Shown here: piece after piece, positions 5,683 to 60,887 of the stretch
Position numbering within the stretch: the first letter of the stretch is position 1
Layout of the letters: each line of letters begins with the position of its first letter
From: Candidatus Nitrosocosmicus sp.
Lineage (GTDB): Archaea; Thermoproteota; Nitrososphaeria; Nitrososphaerales; Nitrososphaeraceae
Length of the DNA stretch: 62,529 nt
Direction of reading: 5' to 3'
NCBI GenBank assembly: GCA_025934495.1
Contig: JAICXY010000007.1
Span: 1-62,529 of the forward strand
Program-made: the position numbers and the translations under genes
The notes under the pieces: generated by a model
Told to the model about the DNA's origin: nothing
What the model saw: the letters and a program-made list of their open reading frames with translations, nothing else
The model's database searches: none

Positions 5683-6537
5683 ATGTCAAATGAATATGCC
5701 CATCCAGAAGTTTTAGTTAATACTCAATGGACAGAAGAACACCTTAATGATTCAAACGTGAGAATTGCAGAAGTAGATTACGATCCAAAAACAAATTACT
5801 TTCTAGGCCACATACCTGGAGCAGTTTTATTTGATTGGAGACAAGATATTAATGATCCTATAAGAAGAAATATACTTTCAAAACAAGCCTGTGAAAAATT
5901 GCTTTCAGAAAAAGCAGGGTTAAATGATGATACTATTCTTGTATTATATGGTGATTTTAATAATTGGTTTGCAGCATTTGCATTTTGGGTTTTCAAATAC
6001 TATGGATATAAAGATATACGGATAATGAATGGTGGAAGAAAGAAGTGGCTTGAAGAAGATAGAATAGTTACTAAAGATATCTCAAATTATCCGACCGGAA
6101 ATTTTAAGGCCATTAATCCAGACGAAAAGATTAGAACATATTTAACCTATGTTTCAAATTCTATAGATAAACAAGATTCTGTTGTTTTAGTTGATGTAAG
6201 ATCTCCACAAGAATTTTCAGGAGAAATTACTGCACCACCAGAATATCCTACAGAACATGCCCAGCGAGGTGGCCACATACCTGGAGCAGTAAATATACCG
6301 TGGTCAAAAGCAGTAAATGAAGACGGAACTTTTAAAACTATGGAAGAATTAAAGAAACTCTATCAAGAACGAGGAGTAGTCTCAGAAAAAGAAATAATAT
6401 CTTATTGTAGAATTGGTGAGCGTTCATCTCATACTTGGTTTGTATTGAAATATCTTTTAGGTTACCCTGATGTGAAAAATTACGATGGATCATGGACCGA
6501 ATGGGGCAATATGATTGGAAATGTAATTGAAAAATGA
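5683..6537 (+). CDS. sseA: Thiosulfate sulfurtransferase (two-domain rhodanese)
   Basis: The 284-aa product is a classic tandem rhodanese. The inactive N-domain spans about 8-135 (HIPGAVLFDWRQD, NNWFAAFAFWVFKYYG) and the catalytic C-domain about 160-280. The active loop CRIGERSS begins at Cys242, the CysA-type thiosulfate:acceptor sulfurtransferase loop. It carries sulfane sulfur as a Cys persulfide. It faces the 3' end of a GcvH/TusA-like fusion 48 bases away, which hints at a shared sulfur-transfer role (inference). The ATG start gives the normal N-terminus of the family. Confidence 0.93.
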   Translation: MSNEYAHPEVLVNTQWTEEHLNDSNVRIAEVDYDPKTNYFLGHIPGAVLFDWRQDINDPIRRNILSKQACEKLLSEKAGLNDDTILVLYGDFNNWFAAFAFWVFKYYGYKDIRIMNGGRKKWLEEDRIVTKDISNYPTGNFKAINPDEKIRTYLTYVSNSIDKQDSVVLVDVRSPQEFSGEITAPPEYPTEHAQRGGHIPGAVNIPWSKAVNEDGTFKTMEELKKLYQERGVVSEKEIISYCRIGERSSHTWFVLKYLLGYPDVKNYDGSWTEWGNMIGNVIEK

Positions 6538-6584
6538 TATTAAAGTAAAATAAATATTCTACTATTTTTTCTAAATTTTTTGGT

Positions 6585-7322
6585 TTAATTTAGTTTCTTT
6601 ATCAAAATGTGAAACAAATAATTTGTGATGTTTGATCTTAAACTATTTTTTTCCATTATTATTTCTAACATCTCTTGTTTGTTTTCATCAGTCCAGCGAG
6701 ATACCTCCAAGTCAGCGGTTGGATCATCTGAAACAAGGTGAACTATTTGTCCAACTTCCATTTTTTTATCCATAAAATCGTCCAATTTTGCCAAAGTTGC
6801 AGAGCATTCAGTGCCAAGCTCATACATCTCAAAATCGGGATAATTTTTAAAACATTTTACATTAAATTTTTTAATCAATTTGGAAAGTTCGATTTTACAC
6901 TGATCGATTGATTGCAACGATTCTAGATTTTTAGGATCCAAAGGTTGTATTTTTGCTATCCACCCGCTTTCAAATGGGGAATCATTTACTCTCTTTGGAT
7001 TGGTTAATAAATCATTATTTGTTTCGATAATTTTTCCAGAAATAGGTGATCTAATGACTCCGAAATAACTCATGCTTTCTATAGTGCCTATGCTTTTACC
7101 TTGGATAATAGTTTCACCTATTTGCTTGAGTTTTATTTTTCTTATATTCCCTGCTATGTAGGAAAGTATGGGCATGATACCTACTTTAACTAATTTATAT
7201 TCATTAGCTAAATCTTTTTCAACATTATTATAATTAAAATCTGCCCAAGTAAAGTTTTGGATATCATATAGATAATTTGTAGGAAAAATACAATTATCAA
7301 TTTTAATAGTCATTAATGACAT
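6585..7322 (-). CDS. GcvH-like domain fused to TusA-like domain
   Basis: Residues about 35-130 look like a glycine-cleavage H / biotinyl-lipoyl domain (KVGIMPILSYIAGNI, IIQGKSIGTIES, IRSPISGKIIETNN, DSPFESGWIAKI). The lipoylated lysine after the ES motif is absent (IES-MSYFG). Residues about 165-225 match a TusA/SirA fold: YELGTECSATLAKLDD with Cys173 at the sulfur-carrying position (the CPxP motif is changed to CSAT), then VGQIVHLVSDDPTADLEVSRW. TusA proteins relay persulfide sulfur; lipoate-binding GcvH homologues act in some sulfur-oxidation systems. The gene lies 61 bases downstream of glmS on the same strand and faces a rhodanese. The fold assignments are by eye; a sulfur-relay role is inferred. 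Confidence 0.6.
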   Translation of the reverse strand: MSLMTIKIDNCIFPTNYLYDIQNFTWADFNYNNVEKDLANEYKLVKVGIMPILSYIAGNIRKIKLKQIGETIIQGKSIGTIESMSYFGVIRSPISGKIIETNNDLLTNPKRVNDSPFESGWIAKIQPLDPKNLESLQSIDQCKIELSKLIKKFNVKCFKNYPDFEMYELGTECSATLAKLDDFMDKKMEVGQIVHLVSDDPTADLEVSRWTDENKQEMLEIIMEKNSLRSNITNYLFHILIKKLN

Positions 7323-7383
7323 TTTTATGATATGGAAATAGTATTAATTTAAAGATATAGGCCATTGTTATAGTCTAGTTTTA

Positions 7384-9159
7384 TCATTTGACTGTAACAG
7401 ATTTAGCCAAATTTCTAGGATAGTCTGGATCAACTTGCATTTTAAGCGACAAGTAATAGGCCATAATCTGTAATGGAATAACTTCTACAATTGGATATAG
7501 ATGATCTATACTTTCAGGTATTTGAAGGTAATTATCGTATAGTTCGTGATTCTTGTTTGAAATTCCGATTATTTTAGCACCCCTAGATTTGATTTCATGT
7601 GTACTAGAAATAACGTCTTTATAAGTTTCATCAACAGGATTTATTACGATTACCAATGATTTGGCATCTATCAAAGCTAAAGGGCCATGTTTGAGTTCGC
7701 CAGCTGCAATACCCTCTGCATGAATATAAGCTAGCTCTTTAATTTTTAACGAGCCTTCTAAGGCAATGGAATAATGAAGAGATCTGCCTAATATGTAAAT
7801 ATCTTTAATTTCACTGTCGAGCATAGATACTATTGTTTTTATTTTTTCATCCAATTCTAAAGTTTTCTCTATATCTGTAACCAATTTTTTTTGATTTATT
7901 TTATTAAGAGAAAGTTGGTTGCCCGATAATAAATTGACAACATTGTATATAATCATTAGCTGGCCGATAAAACTTTTAGTTGCAGCTACGCCTATTTCGG
8001 GTCCGCAGTTCAAAACCAGAACAGAATCACTTATTCTTGCTAAAGATGATGTAGAAATATTAATAATTGAAAGAATTTTAGATCCATGCTCCTTTGCTTT
8101 TTTAACAGCATGAATGACATCGGCTGTTTCACCGCTTTGAGAGATGGCAATAATCGCGGAATTAGTTTCCAAAGTATCGGACATATATTGGAATTCACTA
8201 GACATTATGACCTCTGATTTAATTTTTGCGAATTTTGCCAAAAGATTTTTTGCCAATAATCCGGAATGGTAGCTTGTTCCGCTTCCAGTTATATATACAT
8301 TAGAAGCATTTTTGATAAATTTACAAAATTGTTGAAAATCATTATTTTTATTGATTGAATTAAAAAGAATAGATGGCTGTTCGTGAATTTCTTTTAATGT
8401 ATGATGTGCATATTTTCCTTTTTCAGTCGAACCCAATTCCCATGCGACCTGGGTGATAGGTCGAATAACTTTTTTGTTGTTTATATCAAATATGCTATAT
8501 TTATTATTGTCTATGGTAACAATATCCCCATTATCTAAAAAGATAGCTTTATCGGTATGTTTTAAAAAGCCGAGAACATCGCTTGATAAGAAAAGAGCAG
8601 AATTAGCAATTCCGATTATTAGAGGTTCATCGAACCTTGCGCCACAAATTAATCCATTTTTGAAAATGGCAACAAATGCAAAAGATCCCTTTAAAATTTT
8701 ACAGGTATATATAATAGATTTTTTATAATCATTATTGAATTCTTTACAGTATTTTTCCAAAAGATGTGGAATAACTTCGCTATCTGTTTGACTTTTAAAT
8801 ATATGGCCTTCTTTGGATAACTTTTCTTTTAATTCTTGATAATTTTCAATTATGCCATTATGAACAACAGCTATATCTGAGTTACAAGAAAAATGGGGAT
8901 GCGCATTCTTATCACTTACTCCCCCATGGGTTGCCCACCTTGTATGTCCAATCCCTATCTGCCCGGGTAATTTAGCAAATTCTAGAATTTTATCAACCTC
9001 TGCAACCTTTCCTACACCTTTGCTAATTAAAATTTTACCATTATTCATAGTTGCTATTCCGACACTGTCATATCCACGGTATTCCATTTTTTTAAGACTT
9101 TCTACTAACAGCGGAGCTGCCTCAATGAATTGTCCTTTGTACCCGATGATTGAACACAC
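7384..9159 (-). CDS. glmS: Glucosamine-fructose-6-phosphate aminotransferase
   Basis: The 591-aa enzyme makes glucosamine-6-phosphate from fructose-6-phosphate and glutamine, the entry to UDP-GlcNAc and cell-surface glycans. The start MCSIIGYKG places the Ntn nucleophile Cys2 correctly. The glutaminase domain shows RGYDSVGIA, GHTRWATHG and HNGIIENYQ. Two SIS isomerase domains follow (TGSGTSYHS, SQSGETADV; GRSLHYSIALEGSLKIKE, GELKHGPLALI) and the C-terminus ends KSVTVK. It is full length with all motifs present and may be co-transcribed with the downstream GcvH/TusA-like gene. Confidence 0.97.
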   Translation of the reverse strand: MCSIIGYKGQFIEAAPLLVESLKKMEYRGYDSVGIATMNNGKILISKGVGKVAEVDKILEFAKLPGQIGIGHTRWATHGGVSDKNAHPHFSCNSDIAVVHNGIIENYQELKEKLSKEGHIFKSQTDSEVIPHLLEKYCKEFNNDYKKSIIYTCKILKGSFAFVAIFKNGLICGARFDEPLIIGIANSALFLSSDVLGFLKHTDKAIFLDNGDIVTIDNNKYSIFDINNKKVIRPITQVAWELGSTEKGKYAHHTLKEIHEQPSILFNSINKNNDFQQFCKFIKNASNVYITGSGTSYHSGLLAKNLLAKFAKIKSEVIMSSEFQYMSDTLETNSAIIAISQSGETADVIHAVKKAKEHGSKILSIINISTSSLARISDSVLVLNCGPEIGVAATKSFIGQLMIIYNVVNLLSGNQLSLNKINQKKLVTDIEKTLELDEKIKTIVSMLDSEIKDIYILGRSLHYSIALEGSLKIKELAYIHAEGIAAGELKHGPLALIDAKSLVIVINPVDETYKDVISSTHEIKSRGAKIIGISNKNHELYDNYLQIPESIDHLYPIVEVIPLQIMAYYLSLKMQVDPDYPRNLAKSVTVK

Positions 9160-9333
9160 AATAAATTAATTATACCTATGATTTAAAACCTTTATTAAAC
9201 AATGAACTATACCATTATAAAATATATTATAACCTAAATATTTTTAGATCAAATATATGATATAAGGTAGTTTTCTGTAATATGATAAAATTTATACCGG
9301 ACAAAAAATATTATTGGTGATAGTCAATTATTT

Positions 9334-10314
9334 ATGATAATTGAAAAAAAATTAATTTATGAAAAGGGTGATAAAATTTATGAAAAAAAAATTACTATTT
9401 TGGAAAACGAGAAGATTCAAATCTTATCCAATCCTATAGCTTGGAGTATATTAAAATTAATATCGGATAAACCAAAATATACCGCACAAATAGCAAAAGA
9501 ATTAAAGATATATGAACAAAGTGCGTACTATTATATCAAAAAATTAATTTCAATTGAAGCAATTACAGAAATAGGAACAGATTTTGTACATGGTGGAACA
9601 GCTAAACTATACCAAAGTTCAAGTCCATCTTTTGGTATAGAATTGCCATGTGGTGAAAAACAACTGATAAATAATGGCAAAGAAAACGCCAAAATCAACA
9701 TTAGCAATGAACCAACTAGAACATTCTTAACCGGATTTATAAATGATGAAAATTTTTTCGATGGTTTAATCATCGTAGGCTCTCCTAATCCACATGGTAT
9801 TTTCAAAACTTCTGCAAGAGATGGACATTATGCAATTCATTTGGCTTTTTACTTGGGAACATTATGTAAGGTGCCTCAAGGTTTTATTGTAAAACTTGAT
9901 GAAGATGCAAAAGCAGAAAAGGAAATGACATATAACAATTTAATCGTGATTGGTGGCCCTGGTACAAACATAGTTTCATCAGAACTTAATCAATATTTGC
10001 CGATAAAATTCAATGAAAATAACTATTGGTCGGGTTTATTCGATAAAACTGGCAAAATATATCATTTAGACAATATAGGAATTATAGCCAAGGTTAAAAA
10101 TCCTTTTAATAAATCAAAAAATATTATTTTGATAGCGGGAGTACGATCAATAGGTACCAAATCTGCGGTAATAGCATTCACTAACTTCGGCAAAAAAATG
10201 TTTTCAAAATATATGGGAAATGAAACTGAATGGGCTGCAATAGTGCAAGGGTATGATATGAATAGTGATGGAAAAATTGATTATGTAGATATCGAGAAGG
10301 TTGAAGGAATATAA
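9334..10314 (+). CDS. Winged-helix protein with C-terminal GGP (S-layer-like) domain
   Basis: Residues about 25-100 form an ArsR-like winged helix (NPIAWSILKLISDKPKYTAQ, recognition helix around EQSAYYYIKKL, wing FVHGGTAKLY). The remaining 200 residues contain VIGGPGTNIVSSELNQYLP and ILIAGVRSIGTKSAVIAF, a pattern I associate with archaeal S-layer-type C-terminal domains that here carry no signal peptide. It ends with an acidic DMNSDGKIDYVD segment of calcium-loop type (DxNxDGxID). A cytoplasmic sensor or regulator is the natural reading; the ligand is unknown. It is converging with rps4. Confidence 0.6.
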   Translation: MIIEKKLIYEKGDKIYEKKITILENEKIQILSNPIAWSILKLISDKPKYTAQIAKELKIYEQSAYYYIKKLISIEAITEIGTDFVHGGTAKLYQSSSPSFGIELPCGEKQLINNGKENAKINISNEPTRTFLTGFINDENFFDGLIIVGSPNPHGIFKTSARDGHYAIHLAFYLGTLCKVPQGFIVKLDEDAKAEKEMTYNNLIVIGGPGTNIVSSELNQYLPIKFNENNYWSGLFDKTGKIYHLDNIGIIAKVKNPFNKSKNIILIAGVRSIGTKSAVIAFTNFGKKMFSKYMGNETEWAAIVQGYDMNSDGKIDYVDIEKVEGI

Positions 10315-10344
10315 CCCTTAAAAAAAAACATATGTGATATTTTG

Positions 10345-10851
10345 TTATTTATAGTTATTGCTAGCAGTTTCTACCACTGGGTTAAGATGAACTAAAATTT
10401 CTAATTCTTCATCCTTCTTTACTAAATATCCTGGTAGGTTTATTTTTCTATTTCCAATACTTACATGACCATGTACTACAATTTGTCTGGCCTGATATGG
10501 GGATTTTAGGTTAGAGCGCTTCATCACCATTGTTTGTAATCTCCTTTCCAAAATATCTTCAATTTTAAGATTGAGTATATCGTCCAGAGTAGAACTAGTT
10601 GTTACAAGCCCCAACCTCGACAAATAATTAAGTAAATTATTTTCTTTATCATGTCTTACCTCTATAGGAAGTGACAAAAGAGATCTAGCCTGATTTCTTA
10701 TCCTAGCAATTTCGGTTTGAGCTTTCCATAATTCTTTTTTATTTCTTAAACCATAGGAACCTACGACATATAATTCCGAACTTATCTGATCACTAGTCCA
10801 TATACTTCGAGGCCTAGTATAACTTTTTTTGGCTTTTCTTGGATCACCCAT
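10345..10851 (-). CDS. rps4: 30S ribosomal protein S4 (uS4)
   Basis: At 168 aa it has the archaeal S4 form: MGDPRKAKKSYTRPR at the start, an S4 RNA-binding domain (RRLQTMVMKRSNL, ARQIVVHGHVSIGNRKIN) and no bacterial N-terminal zinc knuckle. It is a primary 16S rRNA binder in small-subunit assembly. It follows rps13 after 14 bases, the usual archaeal order, but rps11 does not follow here. Confidence 0.95.
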   Translation of the reverse strand: MGDPRKAKKSYTRPRSIWTSDQISSELYVVGSYGLRNKKELWKAQTEIARIRNQARSLLSLPIEVRHDKENNLLNYLSRLGLVTTSSTLDDILNLKIEDILERRLQTMVMKRSNLKSPYQARQIVVHGHVSIGNRKINLPGYLVKKDEELEILVHLNPVVETASNNYK

Positions 10852-10865
10852 TTATACCACCTTTA

Positions 10866-11351
10866 TTATTTAGGGGAGCTCCCTGGAGAAGCAGGAGCCC
10901 TTCCGGCAACTTTCTTGACACCTACTGCCGTTGCTTTCCTACCTGTATTCCTCGTTCTTTGACCTCTGACACGTAACCCAAACATATGTCTATACCCTCT
11001 CCAGCTCATTACAGTTTTTTCCCTATCTATATCATTAGATTTAATAAAGTCTAAATCTGAGGTGATCAAATGTATATCAGTACCTGTATCCATATCTTTT
11101 CTTCTATTAAGGTACCAAGATGGTACACCTAGTGAATTAATATTTTTTAGAGCATTTTCTACATCTGAAATATCTTTATCAGTAAGAAAACCTACTCGAA
11201 GATAAGGATTGATGTTTAAAGACTGCAAAATAACCTGAGCTAAATTATAACCTACCCCTTTTACCAAACTCAACGCAATTATTGATTTTTTACTACCTTC
11301 AACATCTTTTCCGGCAATTCTAAGTATGTGTTTAAATTCTTCCTGCGACAA
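10866..11351 (-). CDS. rps13: 30S ribosomal protein S13 (uS13)
   Basis: S13 sits at the subunit head. The sequence shows LSQEEFKHILRIAGKDVEGSK, LVKGVGYNLAQ, SWRGYRHMFGLRVRGQRT and RNTGRKATAVG, the conserved tRNA-contacting tail. The frame extends 63 bases upstream with a hydrophobic sequence alien to S13. I therefore place the start at the TTG before SQEEF, giving 161 aa; a GTG five codons further upstream is the alternative. It is the first gene of a two-gene operon with rps4. Confidence 0.93.
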   Translation of the reverse strand: MSQEEFKHILRIAGKDVEGSKKSIIALSLVKGVGYNLAQVILQSLNINPYLRVGFLTDKDISDVENALKNINSLGVPSWYLNRRKDMDTGTDIHLITSDLDFIKSNDIDREKTVMSWRGYRHMFGLRVRGQRTRNTGRKATAVGVKKVAGRAPASPGSSPK

Positions 11352-11588
11352 TTTATTTATAATCACAGAAATTAAATTCCTAAATAAAAACCATGCTGGT
11401 AGAAATAAGATCAACTCGAATTTACAACTTCAAAAAGGATATAAAAATTTCATATATTAAAATTTTAAGGTATCTGCATTTTATTTTTTTTTAATCTTTA
11501 AATTGAAAAATTAAAAAATTTATAATATTATAAACGATTTAAGGCTAAATAAATCTTATATCTTGGAGTCTATAAATAATTTCGAAAT

Positions 11589-42826: not shown

Positions 42827-43759
42827 CTAGATTTTCCTAAACAGATTATACAATGAAACCTTTATCATCATCTCTTTTACCATGTTTTGAAACCGGCTAG
42901 CAGATACATATACTCACCAAATGTTCTCTTTATCGTCGAAAAAACTGTCTCGGCAATCCACCATCTATGGCCAAACTTTCTTTTAGCCTTCCATTTCAAC
43001 AGGTCGTCTTTTGTATGTAATCTTATTTCCATGTCCTTAAACTGTTATTCTATTAGAAATGATGGAATTTTTTCTCACCTTAATTCCCAGAGCAATTCCT
43101 TTCTATTCAAGAAATTGAAAGTTTGTGTTTGTGTTTGTATCCTGGGCACCATCGGCAATGACAGATTCGATCATTATACTTGGATTATCCAAAACATCGT
43201 TAACCAGTTCCTTTGACATACTGCTGCTGCTATCATGTACCTTCTCATCGGTTACCTCTAAAGCAAGGATTTCTTTGGTCTTTATGTTTACGGCTATGTG
43301 GATCTTAAGATAGTAGCCTTTCCTATTAAGAACATTCCATTTCTCATTTATCCACTGCCCTCTATTTGTTACTTTGATAGCCGTGCTGTCTGCTGCATTT
43401 ATGATATACCCATCATCATCATCATCATCATCATCATCTTCTTTATTGACATGGCCATTATTGATGCTGACATTTAATTTGTTGATCCTTTTATAGATAT
43501 GACCATAACTAGGTGATCTTCTTGGAAGAGTTTTTTCAGTTGCCTTGGTTATTCCTTCTGTTTGTCTATAAGGTAGATGAAATGAGTAACGTATGTAACC
43601 AACTACTAGTATGAAGGAGTCCTGAAAGATAAAGGGTTTGCCCCTCTTGTTTTTATTCATTCCTTCTAGCTCTGAGCCCCAATTATTAAGAAACTCATAT
43701 TAAAACAATATCTCCTCACGGCGAACCAATGATCGATTGTAAGAGGGCCAGTTAATCAA
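42827..43759 (-). pseudogene. IS5-like DDE transposase, interrupted
   Basis: The frame begins near a TTG (INWPSYNRSLVRREEIL), hits a stop, then continues YEFLNNWGSELEGMNKNKRG through a 185-residue open stretch (FSFHLPYRQTEGI-type block, AADSTAIKVTNRGQW with the first catalytic Asp, YLKIHIAVNIKTKEILALEV, VIADGAQD). A shift near 43103 moves the C-terminus (AETVFSTIKRTFGEYVSAS, ALYNLF-like SLYNLF) to another frame. A nine-Asp tract encoded by CAT repeats lies just before the first catalytic motif. Confidence 0.75.
43411..43437. repeat. (CAT)9 microsatellite in transposase gene
   Basis: Nine CAT units encode a run of aspartates on the minus strand, inserted between the N-terminal region and the catalytic AADSTAI of the IS5-like transposase. 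Confidence 0.9.
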
Positions 43760-54136: not shown

Positions 54137-54159
54137 TATAAATATTATATTTATATAAG
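54137..54159 (+). promoter_or_regulatory. Archaeal-type TATA region before the NRPS cassette
   Basis: TTATAAATATTATATTTATA-type sequence lies 15-35 bases before the ATG at 54171, with AAGG just after it. The TATA element is in host-like AT-rich DNA, directly at the junction with the GC-rich genes, so the cassette may be driven by a host promoter. Confidence 0.45.
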
Positions 54160-54170
54160 GAAATCATGAC

Positions 54171-55919
54171 ATGTCACAATCTGTTCCGCACCGATCGAAT
54201 TTAGACCATGTCGGAGGAGAGAAGGTCTCCGAGTTGCGCCTGCTCGCACAACGGCAGCCTGATCTGAACAGAGTCCGGTGCCTCGGACGGCATCAGAATG
54301 TAGTACGTGAGCATGAGAGCAATGCACTCCGTTGTTCTCCTGGTGAGCGACTTAATCATCTTCTCGAGGAAGCCTGCATCCACTTCTCGACGAATGATGC
54401 TGTAATCGGAAGCGGCGGCATCGTTTTGAGTTATCGCGATCTTAACCGCCGTGCCAATAAGCTCGCTCGTCATCTGCTTGCCCGCGGAATCAAGTCCGGC
54501 GACCGCGTCGCAATGATGTTCGACAGATCGCCAGAAACATACGTGGCGATGCTTGCGGTGATGAAAGTCAATGCGGCCTATGTGCCGCTTGATGCTGCCT
54601 TTCCGATCGAACGCATTCGCTTCATTCTCGGAGACGCAGACGTTTCCGCCATCGTGTCAATGTCAAGTTTGGCGAATCACCTCTCCGGTACCAATGTCAA
54701 CAAGATATTTCTCGATTCGGAAAGACTGGAGATAGATGCACAGGCGGCCGATCCGTTGACCGGCGTTGCGCCGCCGATTGAGCCCCTCTGTTATATCATC
54801 TACACATCGGGCACCACCGGTAATCCGAAGGGCGTCGGTATCGGACACGCAAGTATTTGTAATTACGTGCGCGTCGCCGCTGAGATTTATGGCTATGCGC
54901 CTGGCGATCGTGTCTACCAAGGCATAACGATCGCGTTCGATTTCTCCGTCGATGAGATCTGGGTGTCGCTGATGGCCGGTGCGACGATCGTCCCTGGGCC
55001 GGTCGGCATGACCCTGATGGGCGACGAGCTTGGAGACTTTCTACGCGAACGCCGTGTGACAGTAATGGGTTGTTGTCCGACACTGCTCACCACCATCGAG
55101 CAGGAGTTGCCGGACCTGCGGGTCCTGATTGTCGGCGGTGAGGTTTGTCCGCAAAATCTCGTAACCCAATGGTATCGCCCCGGCCGCCGCATTCTTAATA
55201 CTTACGGTCCCACCGAGACGACCGTCACAGCAACAATGACCGAGCTGCGACCGGATAAGCCAGTCACGATTGGTGTACCGATCCCGACCTATTCGATCGT
55301 CATCCTCGATCCGCACGAAGACAAGACCGTTCCGACCGGTGAGATAGGTGAGATTGGTATCGCAGGCGTCGGACTAGCTCTTGGTTACATGAATCGCGAT
55401 GACCTGACAATGAAGAAGTTCATTTGCGATTTCTTGCACATCACAAATAATCCCTCCGGCAAAATATATCGCACCGGCGATCTTGGTCAGATCAACGAGA
55501 ACGGCGAGATCTACTACCGCGGCCGTATCGACACGCAGGTCAAGATTCGGGGCTATCGTATCGAGCTCAATGAAATCGAATCGGTGCTGCTCGACCTACC
55601 TCAGGTCGCACAGGCCGCCGTGATTACATTCGAGCTCGAAGAGGGCGTCGTCGAAATCGTTGCCTATTATGCTCTCAAGCAGGGAATCGAACTACCGCAT
55701 AGCGAGATCTCGCAGGCTCTGCGCAGCAAGCTTCCAGCCTACATGGTGCCAGCCTTCCTCGAGCCAGTCGACGCCATACCAATGACGCTGAGTAACAAGA
55801 CCGACTACAAGAGGCTGCCCAAGCCTCAGTTGCAGCGTTTTTCTGCCGCGCAAGGATATGTTCTGCCCAAAACCGAGCGCGAGCGCATGCTGCACGACGC
55901 GCTTGTCGGGGGTCATTAG
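54171..55919 (+). CDS. Pls-like NRPS, adenylation domain and start of carrier (frameshifted)
   Basis: The first 582 residues encode an amino-acid adenylation domain. Visible core motifs: A2-like AAYVPLDAAFP, A3 YIIYTSGTTGNPKGV at 208-222, A4 AFDFSVDEIW, A5 NTYGPTETTV at 343-352, A7 YRTGDLG at 433-439, A8 RGRIDTQVKIRGYRIELNEIE and A10 NKTDYKRLP with the catalytic Lys. After Pro550 the carrier domain begins (LPKTERERMLHDAL) but a stop follows at once. Removing one G from the GGGGG at about 55906-55911 joins it to the next frame in good register. Higher GC than all flanking DNA; probably acquired from bacteria. Start ATG 11 bases after AAGG. Confidence 0.9.
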   Translation: MSQSVPHRSNLDHVGGEKVSELRLLAQRQPDLNRVRCLGRHQNVVREHESNALRCSPGERLNHLLEEACIHFSTNDAVIGSGGIVLSYRDLNRRANKLARHLLARGIKSGDRVAMMFDRSPETYVAMLAVMKVNAAYVPLDAAFPIERIRFILGDADVSAIVSMSSLANHLSGTNVNKIFLDSERLEIDAQAADPLTGVAPPIEPLCYIIYTSGTTGNPKGVGIGHASICNYVRVAAEIYGYAPGDRVYQGITIAFDFSVDEIWVSLMAGATIVPGPVGMTLMGDELGDFLRERRVTVMGCCPTLLTTIEQELPDLRVLIVGGEVCPQNLVTQWYRPGRRILNTYGPTETTVTATMTELRPDKPVTIGVPIPTYSIVILDPHEDKTVPTGEIGEIGIAGVGLALGYMNRDDLTMKKFICDFLHITNNPSGKIYRTGDLGQINENGEIYYRGRIDTQVKIRGYRIELNEIESVLLDLPQVAQAAVITFELEEGVVEIVAYYALKQGIELPHSEISQALRSKLPAYMVPAFLEPVDAIPMTLSNKTDYKRLPKPQLQRFSAAQGYVLPKTERERMLHDALVGGH

Positions 55920-58350
55920 CGCCAAGCATATCTCGATCGAGCACCACTTCTTCGATGATCTCGGTGCCAATTCGCTGTTGATGGCGCGTGTCTGTGCAGC
56001 GATCCGCAGGAATTCGAGCATGTCAAACGTGTCGATGCGTGATATTTACATGCATCCGACGATCGCTAGACTAGCACACCACCTCGATTCTTCGATCGAC
56101 GAATCTGTTGCAATGAAGACGGAACCCTTTCACGTTCCATCGAACCTATCGTACGTCACCTGCGGGGCCATGCAGATTGAGTTCTATGCAGCCTATCTGC
56201 TATTCGGACTCTTGATCTTCGTGGACGGTATCCAATGGGCGACGGCCTCTGACAGCTCGGTGGGGCTCTACGAGCGCAGCGTCGCATTTGGCGCAGGATT
56301 GTTTGTTGTGCTGACCGCGGTTCCCATCGCCTCGAAATGGCTACTGATCGGCCGCTTCAAGGCGCAATCGATTCCGATCTGGAGCTTTGCATATTTTCGC
56401 TTCTGGGCTGTCAAGACCTTGATGCGCACATCACCTGCGGCCGCATTCATCGGCACACCCCTCTACAACATCTATCTGCGTCTGATGGGTGCTAGGATCG
56501 GCCGCAATGTAATTGTGAGGTGCCATTTCGCACCGGTATGTACCGACCTTGTGACGATCGGTGACAACACCATCGTCGGCAACGAAACAAGCCTGCTCGG
56601 CTATCGCGCGCAGTCAAACTTCATCCATATGGGCCCTGTAACTATCGGCAGCAACGCCTTCGTTGGCGAAGGCAGCGTACTCGACATCGACACTACGATG
56701 GGCGACAACACACAGCTCGGTCATGCCTCGTCGCTTCAGGGTGGCCAGCGTGTGCCGGATGGCAAGCGCTACCATGGCTCGCCGGCAGTTGAGACTTTCT
56801 CTGACTATTGCCCGATCAAGGACAAGAACGACACTACACTTCGAGGCGCCATCTATGTGTCGCTCATCCTCTCGACAATGTTCATGATCGCTGTGCCTAT
56901 GGTGATGATCCTCATCTATCATGCCTGGGATCTGTATTGCCCGTCTACTCTATCCTCTCTGCATTGCCAGGCGATCTTCTCCATGTCGATTCCCTTGCTG
57001 CTCGTCCTTTCGGCGGCGTTTTTCTTTGGCGCGCTCGGTCTCGGGCTTGTGGTCGTGTGTGTCATTCCGCGTCTCTGCATGCTAGCGCTGCGGCCCGGCG
57101 CGATCTACCCGAATTTCGGCTTCCACTACATGCTGCAGAGCATCATACGGGGCGTCAGTAATTCGGATTTCTTCGGTCGGCTGTTCGGCGACTCGTCAGC
57201 AATAGTGACGTATATGCGCTACGTCGGCTGGAACCTGAACACGGTCTATCAGACTGGCTCAAACATGGGAAACGACCAGAAGCACGACAACCCGTTTCTC
57301 TGCAATATTGGCAGCGGCACGATAGTTTCGGACGGACTGAAGATGCTCAACGTTCAGATGTCGGCGACGTCATTCCGACTTACCGAGTCGAAGATCGGCG
57401 ACAATAACTTTCTAGGCAACGGCATCTCCTACCCGCCGAATGGTCGCACCGGAACCAACGTCCTGTTCGGCACCAAGACCTTGGTGCCGATCGACGGTCC
57501 GGTGCGCGAGAACGTCGGGCTGCTCGGCTCGCCGGCCTTCGAGATTCCGCGCAAAGTCTGCCGCGATAGCAACTTGAATGCGTCGTTCGACGAGCAAACG
57601 CGTCGTGCTCGGCTGCGCCGGAAGAACGCGTACAATTTCATCACAGCCTTGATATTCCTTGCCAGCCAGTGGATGGCAGTCTTTGCCGACTTCGTGCTCG
57701 GACAATCTGCAATCGCGAGTTACGACCGTTTTGGCATCTACGCGTTCTTCGCAGCCAGCGTAGTAGGTATCGCCTTCAACATCGCCTTCTTTATCGTGCT
57801 CGAGCGCGCAATCTTAGGCTTCAAGCGACTCAAACCTCATCTCGCCTCGATCTACGATCCGTATTTCTGGTGGCACGAAAGGTACTGGAAAATAGACGCT
57901 TTCCCTATCCTGACAATGTTCGCCGGCACCCCGTTCCGCGGAGTGCTGCTTCGCGCCATGGGCATGAAGGTTGGTGCCAAGATTTTCGATTGCAGCTTGG
58001 GCAACCATGAATGCTCGCTGACGGAGGTCGGTGACTACGCCAATCTGAACGAGGGCAGTGTGTTGCAAGCACATTCACTCGAGGAAGGTGTGTTCAAGTC
58101 CGACTACATCCGGCTCGGCAACAGATGCTCTATCGGCCCAGGGGCCTTAGTTCACTACGGCGTCAGCACTGGAGACGACGTTGTACTCGATGCCGATTCC
58201 TTCCTAATGAAAGGCGAGATCCTAGAATCACATACAGAGTGGTGCGGAAATCCGGCCAAGATGGAAAGCCGCCACGTGTCTCAGGTCGATGTTTGTATCC
58301 CCCTGAATGTTGCGGATGCCATCGTCCGAAAAGAGTTTTCACCTCAATGA
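55858..58350 (+). CDS. Pls-like NRPS, carrier and C-terminal membrane/beta-helix region
   Basis: In the frame shared after the shift, the carrier motif reads HHFFDDLGANSLLMARV, with the phosphopantetheine Ser codon at 55972. Then come membrane helices (YAAYLLFGLLIFVDGIQWA; AGLFVVLTAVPIA), a left-handed beta-helix of hexapeptide repeats (IGRNVIVRC, VTIGDNTIVGNET, VTIGSNAFVGEGSVL), two more membrane hairpins, and two further beta-helix blocks (IGDNNFLGNG; LGNRCSIGPGALV). This is the C-terminal layout of TIGR02353-type enzymes such as epsilon-poly-lysine synthetase (Pls), where it performs iterative peptide-bond formation. The ATG assigned at 55858 is not a true start; translation belongs to the upstream frame. 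Its stop overlaps the next gene (ATGA). Confidence 0.88.
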   Translation: MFCPKPSASACCTTRLSGVISAKHISIEHHFFDDLGANSLLMARVCAAIRRNSSMSNVSMRDIYMHPTIARLAHHLDSSIDESVAMKTEPFHVPSNLSYVTCGAMQIEFYAAYLLFGLLIFVDGIQWATASDSSVGLYERSVAFGAGLFVVLTAVPIASKWLLIGRFKAQSIPIWSFAYFRFWAVKTLMRTSPAAAFIGTPLYNIYLRLMGARIGRNVIVRCHFAPVCTDLVTIGDNTIVGNETSLLGYRAQSNFIHMGPVTIGSNAFVGEGSVLDIDTTMGDNTQLGHASSLQGGQRVPDGKRYHGSPAVETFSDYCPIKDKNDTTLRGAIYVSLILSTMFMIAVPMVMILIYHAWDLYCPSTLSSLHCQAIFSMSIPLLLVLSAAFFFGALGLGLVVVCVIPRLCMLALRPGAIYPNFGFHYMLQSIIRGVSNSDFFGRLFGDSSAIVTYMRYVGWNLNTVYQTGSNMGNDQKHDNPFLCNIGSGTIVSDGLKMLNVQMSATSFRLTESKIGDNNFLGNGISYPPNGRTGTNVLFGTKTLVPIDGPVRENVGLLGSPAFEIPRKVCRDSNLNASFDEQTRRARLRRKNAYNFITALIFLASQWMAVFADFVLGQSAIASYDRFGIYAFFAASVVGIAFNIAFFIVLERAILGFKRLKPHLASIYDPYFWWHERYWKIDAFPILTMFAGTPFRGVLLRAMGMKVGAKIFDCSLGNHECSLTEVGDYANLNEGSVLQAHSLEEGVFKSDYIRLGNRCSIGPGALVHYGVSTGDDVVLDADSFLMKGEILESHTEWCGNPAKMESRHVSQVDVCIPLNVADAIVRKEFSPQ

Positions 58351-58794
58351 ACGCCAAGGTCAGTCTTAAGAAAATGATCGCCGACAATTGGGAATCGATA
58401 GGAGAGTTTGATCTTGGTGCGGGCTGGACTGTCTAGTGGCGAGTATATCCATTTGGTTGTCGAAACTTTGTTCGCTCCCGACGTGTGCCCGCGAGATGTC
58501 TATGTCGGGGACCGATTAGTCGGCTTCCTGATGTATGACGTAAAGAAAAAAGGGCAAGGCGCAGGAAGCCTCAATCTATCACATCATATCTATCGTAATT
58601 ACCAAGGCAAAGGCTATGGTCAAGTGGCGCTGAGCAAGGCTCTGGAGGATATTCGAGTGAGCCCGTGGATGGAAAGGATATCGATCCGCTACATACCCGA
58701 AAATCCAGTTGCGAAGACGTTCTACACCAGCATCAGTTTTGTGGAGGTGGGACCGGACTGCGATGGAAAGGTGATCGCGGTTCTGAAACTGTAA
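58347..58794 (+). CDS. GNAT acetyltransferase, frameshifted
   Basis: The ATG overlaps the NRPS stop (ATGA), which argues that it is the real start. The first 29 residues (NAKVSLKKMIADNWESIGEF) match the beginning of diamine N-acetyltransferase-type GNATs, then the frame stops. One base fewer in the GGG near 58420 joins it to YIHLVVETLFAPD, VGDRLVGFLMYDV, the acetyl-CoA loop RNYQGKGYGQVAL and YTSISFVEVG. Without repair only a shorter protein from an internal TTG at 58408 could be made. It may modify the NRPS product or its amino-acid monomer. GC-rich. Confidence 0.75.
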
Positions 58795-59477
58795 TGTCCG
58801 ACGGTACTGTAGATCCCTTAATAAAGCGAGCAATCGATGCCCTCGCCGTGCCAGGTCTGCTGATCGGCCATCGTATGATTTCGCAAGGCGATGAGTTCGC
58901 GCTACTTCACGAGGAGATGGCGTCGTTATCCTTCCCTACGATCGAAAGGTGCCGAGCCAGTGGCGCCGAACGGCGTGCGGCGCGCGAGCTGATGAACTCG
59001 ATGGGTTTTGCTGGTCTTCCAATCCTCAGGAGCACATTTGGCGCACCGATCTGGCCAGCAGGAGTTGTAGGCTCGATGGCGCACGATGATAGAATTGCTG
59101 TAGCCGCTGTCGGTCTGCAGCATGACCTTGATGCGGTCGGCGTCGATATCGAACCAATAGCGCCGTTGCCACCGGAAATGCTTGAGCTGACTGCTACACC
59201 GCGGGAGCGGCATGCGATTGCTGACAACCCGTTTGGGGCAAAGATTCTCTTTGCCATCAAGGAGGCGGTCTACAAGGCGGCCTATACACTCGATCATGAG
59301 TTTCTTGATTTTCACGATATTGATGTTGACCTTACCCGCCGGCTTGCGACGACCAGAGCCGGACTCACGCTCAAGCTCCATTGGTGCATTTTCTCTCACG
59401 TGCTGGTTGTGGCGGTGGTCCAGAAGGATTCTATGGACCACTTGGCTTCGAACTGGAACCAGGGCAGATCCATTTGA
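58794..59477 (+). CDS. 4'-phosphopantetheinyl transferase (EntD/Sfp type)
   Basis: The intact 227-aa enzyme starts within TAATG at the GNAT stop, so it is translationally coupled. It shows GSMAHDDRIAVAAV (93-106), the Mg-binding GVDIEP with Asp118 and Glu120, and the catalytic FAIKEAVYKAAY (153-164; Glu157, Lys161). It would convert the NRPS carrier from apo to holo form. Archaea rarely have such enzymes, so its presence in the same cassette makes the pathway self-sufficient. GC-rich like its neighbours. Confidence 0.93.
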   Translation: MSDGTVDPLIKRAIDALAVPGLLIGHRMISQGDEFALLHEEMASLSFPTIERCRASGAERRAARELMNSMGFAGLPILRSTFGAPIWPAGVVGSMAHDDRIAVAAVGLQHDLDAVGVDIEPIAPLPPEMLELTATPRERHAIADNPFGAKILFAIKEAVYKAAYTLDHEFLDFHDIDVDLTRRLATTRAGLTLKLHWCIFSHVLVVAVVQKDSMDHLASNWNQGRSI

Positions 59478-59538
59478 ATTCAGAAACTAATTTATTTTTC
59501 AAATCGATTTTATATAATTTATACGTGGTCGTTATGTA

Positions 59539-59748
59539 CAAGTTTCCCATCCAGGTGGTCCTTTAGAAATTCTAGAGCGAGATGTTCCTGAACCTGATGT
59601 ATCACAAGTCCGTATCAAGGTTCAAGCCTGCGGTATATGCCATGGTGATTCTGCAGCTAGAGATGGGTTGTTTCCAGGCATTCAGTATCCTCGTGTGCCA
59701 GGCCATGAAGTTGCAGGAGTAATCAATTCGGGGAATAAATTTTGTTAA
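59539..59748 (+). pseudogene. Zinc alcohol dehydrogenase, N-terminal fragment
   Basis: The frame reads HPGGPLEILERDVPEPDVSQ, then VRIKVQACGICHGDSAARDG and FPGIQYPRVPGHEVAGVINSG before a stop. These are the catalytic-zinc Cys (ACGICHGD) and GHE motifs of medium-chain alcohol dehydrogenases. The start is missing and at least 250 C-terminal residues are gone. Composition is host-like. It lies just past the end of the GC-rich cassette, so the cassette or a linked deletion probably disrupted it. Confidence 0.8.
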
Positions 59749-60887
59749 AATATTTAGAGTCCCACCAAATTTCCTATAGAACTTAATTGATCAATTTTTA
59801 CTAATCCACCACAACCTGTAGGTCCAGCTAAAGCACTAAGACCTCCAATAACTAAACCTGGTGGAAGTATGAATGAATCTATTCCACCTATTGCTGCACC
59901 ACTAAGAGCATTTTACCGCATCTTAACAGTTATGTAAACAGATGGATACCATCTATATGAAAACCGGCACCAAAATATCATCTTAATTTTTAAGCAATTT
60001 GACCGAATAATTTATGAATGTATCTTATCGATTCTCAAGATTAGATGATTAGTTTTCCACAATAAAGGACTCTGATAATCATAAGTTTCTTTTAGATATT
60101 AAATTAATTAATCTGTTGTTTGTGGATGTTAAAAAATTTCCAGATCGAAAAATTGATCCTGCTGCCACTGGACTACTATAGTATAATTGAAAACTTAATG
60201 CAATAGCTGAAATGACATGTTTATCCATCGGGATGCTCTCTCATATACTACGAAATAAAGGATGAACTTGACCATTTTTAATACCGAGATTCTATATTCT
60301 ACAATGCCTGATTTTTTATTAGCATCTCTTCCCCAGCGGTAAATGGATATTTCCTTTGCTGTCATCATCATCCTCATCCTCATCCTCATCATCAGCAATA
60401 TCTATAATCATATCCTTCATATTCATTTTTTCTTTTGTGGTGTAATGGCCTTTGCTTAAGACATTCTCCTTTATAATACATTTCATTTTAAGGTTGAAAT
60501 CAACGACCAAGGAACCTAAATTTAAACACATCTTTAGTATAACAGTTAAATTTGACAGTTGTTTTTGTAGTCTCTAAAAGAATTGTCCATTTTTATATTA
60601 CAGTTAAGATTTTGTGCTTGTTTTGTCACTTCATTATGATATCAATTTACGGTTGGACCGTATTGACAATTGGACGATTCGGACAGTTCTTTCTATAAAA
60701 TTGGTGATGTTGTAGTGCAATAAAAGATGCCTCTATTTTTAAAGATGCATAACAAGGAGGTGCTAAACATAAGTTAACAGAACCGATATCAGTGATCTCA
60801 TCTATTTAGATTAGATGCAAACCGTACTACTTCATCAGATTTTTGTACTTTATATTTGCCATATAAAATCTAGAGAAAACATAGAGA
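59749..60887. other. Remnant-rich region
   Basis: At 59755-59930 the minus strand reads GLVIGGLSALAGPTGCGGLV-like sequence, a fragment of unidentified glycine-rich protein. At about 60195-60531 minus, two overlapping frames share an acidic tract (ADDEDEDEDDDD) encoded by CAT/CCT repeats and pieces such as KKSGIVEYRISVLK; this looks like another decayed transposase but I cannot assign the family. The rest holds nothing I recognise. Confidence 0.4.
60363..60396. repeat. CAT/CCT trinucleotide repeat
   Basis: Imperfect CAT and CCT units encode an Asp/Glu tract on the minus strand in a decayed frame, resembling the CAT repeat in the IS at 42772. Confidence 0.8.

Follow-up and report, generated by a model that had tools for sequence, protein, structure and literature searches.

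Genes of the Pls/PosA type build short positively charged amino-acid chains in bacteria. To our knowledge, nonribosomal synthesis has rarely been described in Archaea, most of which lack the 4'-phosphopantetheinyl transferase (PPTase) that it requires. Among the closest described systems is PosA, the delta-poly-L-ornithine synthetase of Acinetobacter baumannii, in which an adenylation (A) domain and a carrier domain precede a C-terminal domain of six helices and three beta-helices recognized by TIGR02353; the enzyme uses ornithine, has the pocket code DMEHNGTVSK and is encoded by a single-gene operon with no adjacent PPTase (PMC10522769). The epsilon-poly-L-lysine and poly-diaminopropionate synthetases of Streptomyces albulus (PMC10522769, PMC4668381) belong to the same family, and carry Ala (Lys) or Phe (DAP) at code position 2 and Glu at position 3. 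Enzymes with cationic products are reported to have Asp at position 1 and Glu at position 3, the Glu being described as conserved in the family, and position 2 is Phe in the PDAP/PDAB synthetases, Met for Orn and Ala for Lys; a few archaeal family members were already noted in 2023 (PMC10522769).

The nearest counterpart in gene order is an alphaproteobacterial operon in which synthetase, GNAT acetyltransferase and PPTase genes follow one another with overlaps, as in the soil alphaproteobacterial MAG L010 and on the Aureimonas plasmid pAU20a. Here we describe a locus of this order on an archaeal contig. It shares with PosA the domain architecture and the TIGR02353 profile, and with the S. albulus enzymes presumably the chemistry, but it differs from PosA in its pocket code, in its presumed substrate and in having its own PPTase gene. 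Compared with its relatives in L010 and in the Pseudolabrys MAG L009, to which its proteins are 63–73% identical, it has a split synthetase, a dead GNAT gene and a lower GC content, and the pocket code is DFDGIGTVTK rather than DFEALGSVTK or DFEALGTVTK. We consider it likely, with a probability of roughly 0.75, that a Nitrososphaeraceae archaeon acquired an operon of the alphaproteobacterial type, with synthetase, GNAT and PPTase genes, that directs the synthesis of a homopoly-amino acid. The cassette is real, foreign and of a known kind, acquired recurrently within the order, partly decayed and unusual in its pocket.

A GC-rich cassette on an archaeal contig

The window, by which we mean the whole stretch of 62,529 nucleotides analysed, is contig 11 of a draft archaeal MAG (3.56 Mb in 200 contigs, 96% complete, 1.3% contamination) and encodes archaeal-type uL16, CDC48 and isoleucyl-tRNA synthetase (IleRS) genes. 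The sharp GC-rich block described in the first-pass annotation was recovered by best-fit GC segmentation at 54,186–59,464 (54.8% GC, versus 33.6% outside); the archaeal genes lie in DNA of 23–38% GC, and the contig is AT-rich on both sides of the block. The block edges lie about 15 nt or less from the first start codon and the last stop codon, so that insertion of the cassette into archaeal DNA was almost gene-precise; insertion-element ends and target-site repeats were looked for at the edges and none was seen. The features are as follows.

54137..54159, + strand: TATA-rich stretch, possible host-type archaeal promoter (sequence; upstream regions of native genes compared)
54171..55919, + strand: ORF1, synthetase A domain, 582 aa (TIGR01733, 410 bits; PF00501; PF13193)
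55858..58350, + strand: ORF2, carrier and Pls/PosA C-terminal polymerisation domain (PF00550; TIGR02353; AlphaFold model)
55908..55912, + strand: G5 run, one base beyond what the frame needs, between A and carrier domains (alignment to bacterial protein)
58347..58794, + strand: GNAT acetyltransferase pseudogene (alignment with TH526, L010, Aureimonas and Phyllobacterium GNATs)
58794..59477, + strand: Sfp/EntD/PptT-type 4'-phosphopantetheinyl transferase, 227 aa (PF17837 and PF01648)

Within the TATA-rich stretch, TTATAAAT lies approximately 33 nt and TTTATATA 21 nt 5' of the first ATG; these may mark an archaeal promoter, a tentative suggestion because the upstream region is AT-rich. A truncated zinc alcohol dehydrogenase fragment of ~45–50% GC (59522–59750; read by eye as ...KVQACGICHGDSAARDGLFPGIQYPRVPGHEVAGV) follows right after the cassette, and an IS5-family transposase gene shorter than the family model is present on the minus strand at 43103–43660, ~11 kb before it.

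A split synthetase of the Pls/PosA family

ORF1 ends at a TAG codon and ORF2 lies in the +1 frame relative to it; alignments of the L009 and L010 synthetases switch between frames +2 and +3 of the window at the GGGGG of 55908–55912. Because this frameshift splits the synthetase, the assembly as it stands encodes no fused enzyme; the extra base is either an error in the sequence or a lesion of recent date. ORF2 nevertheless matches TIGR02353 over its full length (1–695 of 695) with 654 bits against a cut-off of 423, carries the carrier Ser codon at 55972–55974 and keeps all six invariant carrier columns, although carrier helix 1 is replaced as a consequence of the frameshift and the Pfam carrier match begins at position 14. 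The AlphaFold model of ORF2 (mean pLDDT 76, pTM 0.79; pLDDT ~40–60 at the carrier start) contains three membrane-helix pairs (96–164, 327–408 and 579–655), with a strand-rich repeat region after each pair, and the C-terminal domain is accordingly predicted to consist of six membrane helices and three left-handed beta-helices. Matches to ORF2 in the PDB, which holds an acyltransferase-like piece only, were to hexapeptide acyltransferase. By its C-terminal domain, A domain, carrier Ser and predicted helix/beta-helix architecture, the product of ORF1 and ORF2 belongs to the Pls/PosA (TIGR02353) family; an A-carrier-terminal arrangement in one frame, which is usual but not universal in this family, is absent from the window. 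Thus the A-domain motifs, carrier Ser and TIGR02353 domain named in the first-pass annotation all stand, as do the ATGA (58347–58350) and TAATG (58792–58796) overlaps, but the synthetase is not one continuous gene.

A single homopolymer error at G5 may account for the split, in which case the living archaeon would have an intact, active synthetase. The change is of one base in a homopolymer, both sides are conserved, and the translation continued across the joint aligns to L010 without a gap. However, no errors of this kind are seen in native genes of the contig, and the several lesions of the adjoining GNAT indicate that the region does accumulate indels; we give this explanation about one chance in three. 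It is improbable that the two halves work as a split enzyme, an A domain and a separate carrier-C-terminal protein, or are joined by a +1 ribosomal shift at the G run or at CAT-TAG-C. In many actinobacterial relatives the A domain is indeed not fused, an A-type domain being encoded ~1 kb downstream, and a +1 shift at the stop would preserve carrier length, but a split protein loses carrier helix 1 at the very point where the Pfam match is delayed and the model is of low confidence, and we know of no +1 shift site of either form in archaea.

Loss of the acetyltransferase and retention of the PPTase

The GNAT listed in the first-pass annotation is a pseudogene: relative to TH526 and bacterial GNATs, the window copy has four out-of-frame deletions (1, 1, 2 and 1 nt), the frame from the ATG at 58347 stops after ~29 codons so that no intact GNAT fold is encoded, and a Pfam search of the remaining ORF in this region of the window gave no match. 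One guess is that the bacterial GNAT N-acetylates the monomer or the product for self-protection. The assignment of the last gene to the Sfp/EntD type was borne out by both Pfam families listed above and by the motif residues (catalytic D/E/KE..K), all of which are intact. This PPTase is the sole PF01648 match in the window's genome, and the cassette is self-sufficient in this activity.

Probable alphaproteobacterial origin

In L010 the operon is intact (synthetase 6252–10418, GNAT 10449–10901, PPTase 10898–11545), and pAU20a has the three genes in the order of L010 and the window; partial or reordered versions occur on Phyllobacterium, Shinella, Sphingomonas and Rhizobium plasmids. Within the order to which L010 belongs, a related A domain was found in 27 of 397 genomes, exceeding 59% identity in L010 alone. 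The bacteria nearest to the window are 69–72% identical over the A domain (L009 and L010) and, in a species-genome contig scan, 63–66% identical over the carrier and C-terminal part. The window copy pairs as sister with that of TH526 (SH-aLRT 99), this pair lies next to L009/L010 (100), and L009/L010 are the window's nearest neighbours in both A-domain and C-terminal trees. By gene order and phylogenetic position, therefore, the cassette is an alphaproteobacterial operon. A virus- or phage-borne cassette was considered and rejected: the viral contig scan contained no relative, and phages gave weak partial matches only.

The possibility of contamination, or of a chimeric assembly with a bacterium, is raised by the GC jump, the fragmented draft state of the MAG and the short distance, only 3 kb, from the right edge of the block to the contig end. 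It is contradicted by the archaeal uL16, CDC48 and IleRS genes on the same contig, the gene-precise edges, the AT drift of the cassette, the presence of a sister copy in a second archaeal MAG, assembled independently, in which AT-richer DNA directly follows the PPTase gene, and the location of other family copies beside archaeal EF-2 and TFB. Moreover, the near-identical co-assembled bacterium that would have accounted for the block was not found in the species-genome contig scan, and the cassette cannot be assigned to such a bacterium because the nearest bacterial copies are only 63–66% identical. We reject this explanation, whose likelihood we put at a few per cent, and conclude that the cassette was transferred from, or via, a relative of L009/L010-type bacteria. 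The central claim of the first-pass annotation, that a foreign cassette of Pls/TIGR02353 type, complete with a PPTase gene, lies on an archaeal contig, is upheld by the domain matches and by the archaeal genes around it.

Among Actinobacteria, the TIGR02353 proteins of L018, L020, L028, L033 and L034 seemingly have carrier domains in tandem, two or three each, and lack a fused A domain; mostly, an A-type domain lies ~1 kb downstream.

A sister copy and the mode of transfer

The copy in TH526 (L011), a Nitrososphaerales MAG, is 73% identical to that of the window over the C-terminal part and 82% over the PPTase, and GC drops from ~60% to ~40% right after its PPTase stop. Its GNAT is also eroded, by an 8-nt and a large deletion, and is fused in frame to the PPTase; the two GNATs have no lesion in common and were broken differently. 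Third codon positions differ at 25.6% between the two cassettes, compared with 55–64% for native genes within the window's genus. Vertical inheritance from a Nitrososphaeraceae ancestor was rejected because the copies are too similar at these positions, which leaves either two transfers from similar donors or an archaeon-to-archaeon transfer.

Downstream of the TH526 cassette, L011 3600–3790 is a second GC-rich (~54%) shred with AT-richer flanks and without a Pfam match, possibly another bacterial remnant. TH526 also has a second PF01648 (PPTase/AcpS-like) match, in a 118-aa frame on L075 (G040 contig 760, 4480–4800), in a MAG with 6% contamination.

Maintenance and decay of the cassette

Apart from the G5 shift, the window synthetase contains no stop codon, against a neutral expectation of ~28 (minimum 13 in 500 simulations); the corresponding expectation is seven for the partial TH526 synthetase and ~4 for the window PPTase, whose lack of stops is not decisive alone as the simulated range extends from 0. 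Residues invariant among 21 bacterial relatives are kept at 88 of 90 sites in the window and at all 13 in TH526. The ratio of rates at codon positions 1+2 to position 3 is 0.40 for the window (CI 0.29–0.56, below 1), slightly above the 0.29 and 0.26 of bacteria, which are under tighter constraint (bootstrap P ~0.02; ML branch-length ratio ~0.44 in the window versus 0.14). From these sequence comparisons the window synthetase is clearly constrained, if mildly relaxed. Parsimony counts of substitution direction gave a GC>AT excess on the window (81:17) and TH526 (39:9) branches, as expected in an AT-rich host, with 50:23 and 30:35 in bacteria.

The cassette may alternatively be a dying passenger, functional in its bacterial hosts and captured by chance, that the archaeon is in the course of losing, the GNAT first and then, via G5, the synthetase. 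Consistent with this, 5.3 kb hold four GNAT deletions and one synthetase frameshift, whereas eight native genes syntenic with complete relatives (31–42 kb, ~9 kb coding) hold no frameshift, so that the cassette lesions are not general sequence noise; constraint is relaxed; and the cassette is present in only 2 of 70 genomes of the window's family. Yet nonsense mutations are wholly absent and nearly all invariant residues retained where neutrality predicts many stops, the lesions cluster in the GNAT, and the pocket changes match those of another archaeal copy (see below). This course of events is conceivable, but we would not bet on it at even odds. We instead read the synthetase and PPTase as probably long maintained beyond the point at which the GNAT could be dispensed with, and the G5 change as either recent or erroneous, although part of the purifying selection could be bacterial if the window and TH526 copies diverged in, or were acquired separately from, bacteria.

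Related synthetases in Nitrososphaerales

When the cassette was looked up in related genomes, as the first-pass annotation had proposed, it proved not to be unique to the window: TIGR02353 proteins occur in 7 of 400 Nitrososphaerales genomes. Both A-domain and C-terminal trees divide them into three separate clades (window and TH526; G090 and G131; G161, G234 and G392), which indicates that acquisition has been recurrent. Members of the other two clades have archaeal hosts, like the window, but are only distantly related to its copy. The G392 copy shares a contig with archaeal EF-2 and TatC and the G234 copy with TFB and uL16, and a PPTase adjoins the synthetase in G090, G131 and G392. Movement of synthetase and PPTase together, in three clades, would show how a single event can bring secondary metabolism to an archaeon. 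We found no report of such a synthetase for ammonia oxidisers in the literature searched, although archaeal family members as such were noted in 2023 (PMC10522769).

The archaeal host origin of the G161 copy is less certain, as it lies within a GC-rich island of ~11.5 kb (contig 19; L078 1271–12729; 63–67% GC in a contig of 52–57% GC). This island also holds a weak PPTase match and hydantoinase-subunit-like genes, and is possibly a larger recent transfer or a mis-assembly.

An unusual pocket code

Our code extraction reproduced the published PosA code (PMC10522769), and in the window gave Asp at position 1 and Phe at position 2 but Asp in place of the Glu at position 3, a departure from the code of enzymes with cationic products. 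Of the bacterial relatives, 45 yielded a readable code and three more did not (one row duplicates L010); each of the 45 has Glu at position 3, and none has Asp or the full code DFDGIGTVTK. In 385 alphaproteobacterial genomes, a search for exact matches to one degenerate DNA pattern for the Asp version gave none; a pattern also permitting Glu matched two of three genomes.

The same DFDGIGTVTK is, however, found in G131, which belongs to another archaeal family; its synthetase falls in a different clade, where its sister, G090, has DFEALGTVTK. In the window and G131 alike, three pocket residues have changed in the same way (E to D, A to G, L to I), as has a nearby M (to I). At the 228 columns where L009, L010 and G090 agree, they share six identical changes, three of them within the nine pocket columns (hypergeometric P = 0.0008, a descriptive value, as the question was framed after the codes were seen). 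An A-domain swap was rejected as the source of the shared code, since both A-domain and C-terminal trees separate the two copies; it may reflect convergence in archaea or separate import from unsampled bacteria. It is rather unlikely that the captured synthetases have been re-tooled for a substrate unused by known members and that soil archaea thereby produce a polymer not described before. A code that breaks the Glu rule in two unrelated archaeal copies poses a concrete biochemical question, namely which amino acid is polymerised.

Because of the Phe at position 2, the substrate is probably a short diamino acid, for example 2,4-diaminobutyrate or 2,3-diaminopropionate, though with a preference presumably shifted by the Asp at position 3; as this Asp breaks the family rule, the assignment is weak. 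Our current model, drawn by analogy with epsilon-poly-lysine synthetase and PosA, is that the PPTase would arm the carrier Ser, the A domain would activate a small diamino acid and load it onto the carrier, and the membrane C-terminal domain would link residues via the side-chain amine, yielding a short cationic chain at the membrane as the predicted product class. An active system could allow soil archaea of the ammonia-oxidising order to produce polymers that are cationic and possibly antimicrobial or surface-bound. Acquisition followed by maintenance has against it the frameshift between A and carrier domains, the relaxed constraint, the Asp at pocket position 3 and the lack, in the archaeal genomes tested, of any match above cut-off to TIGR00709, the 2,4-diaminobutyrate transaminase profile; the best match in the window's own genome was judged by eye to be an acetylornithine/LysJ-type aminotransferase.

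On the Skermanella plasmid L083 (2837–4129), ectB, encoding diaminobutyrate transaminase, directly precedes a Pls/PosA synthetase with the code DFECLSVVTK, which suggests a poly-diaminobutyrate product in that bacterium.
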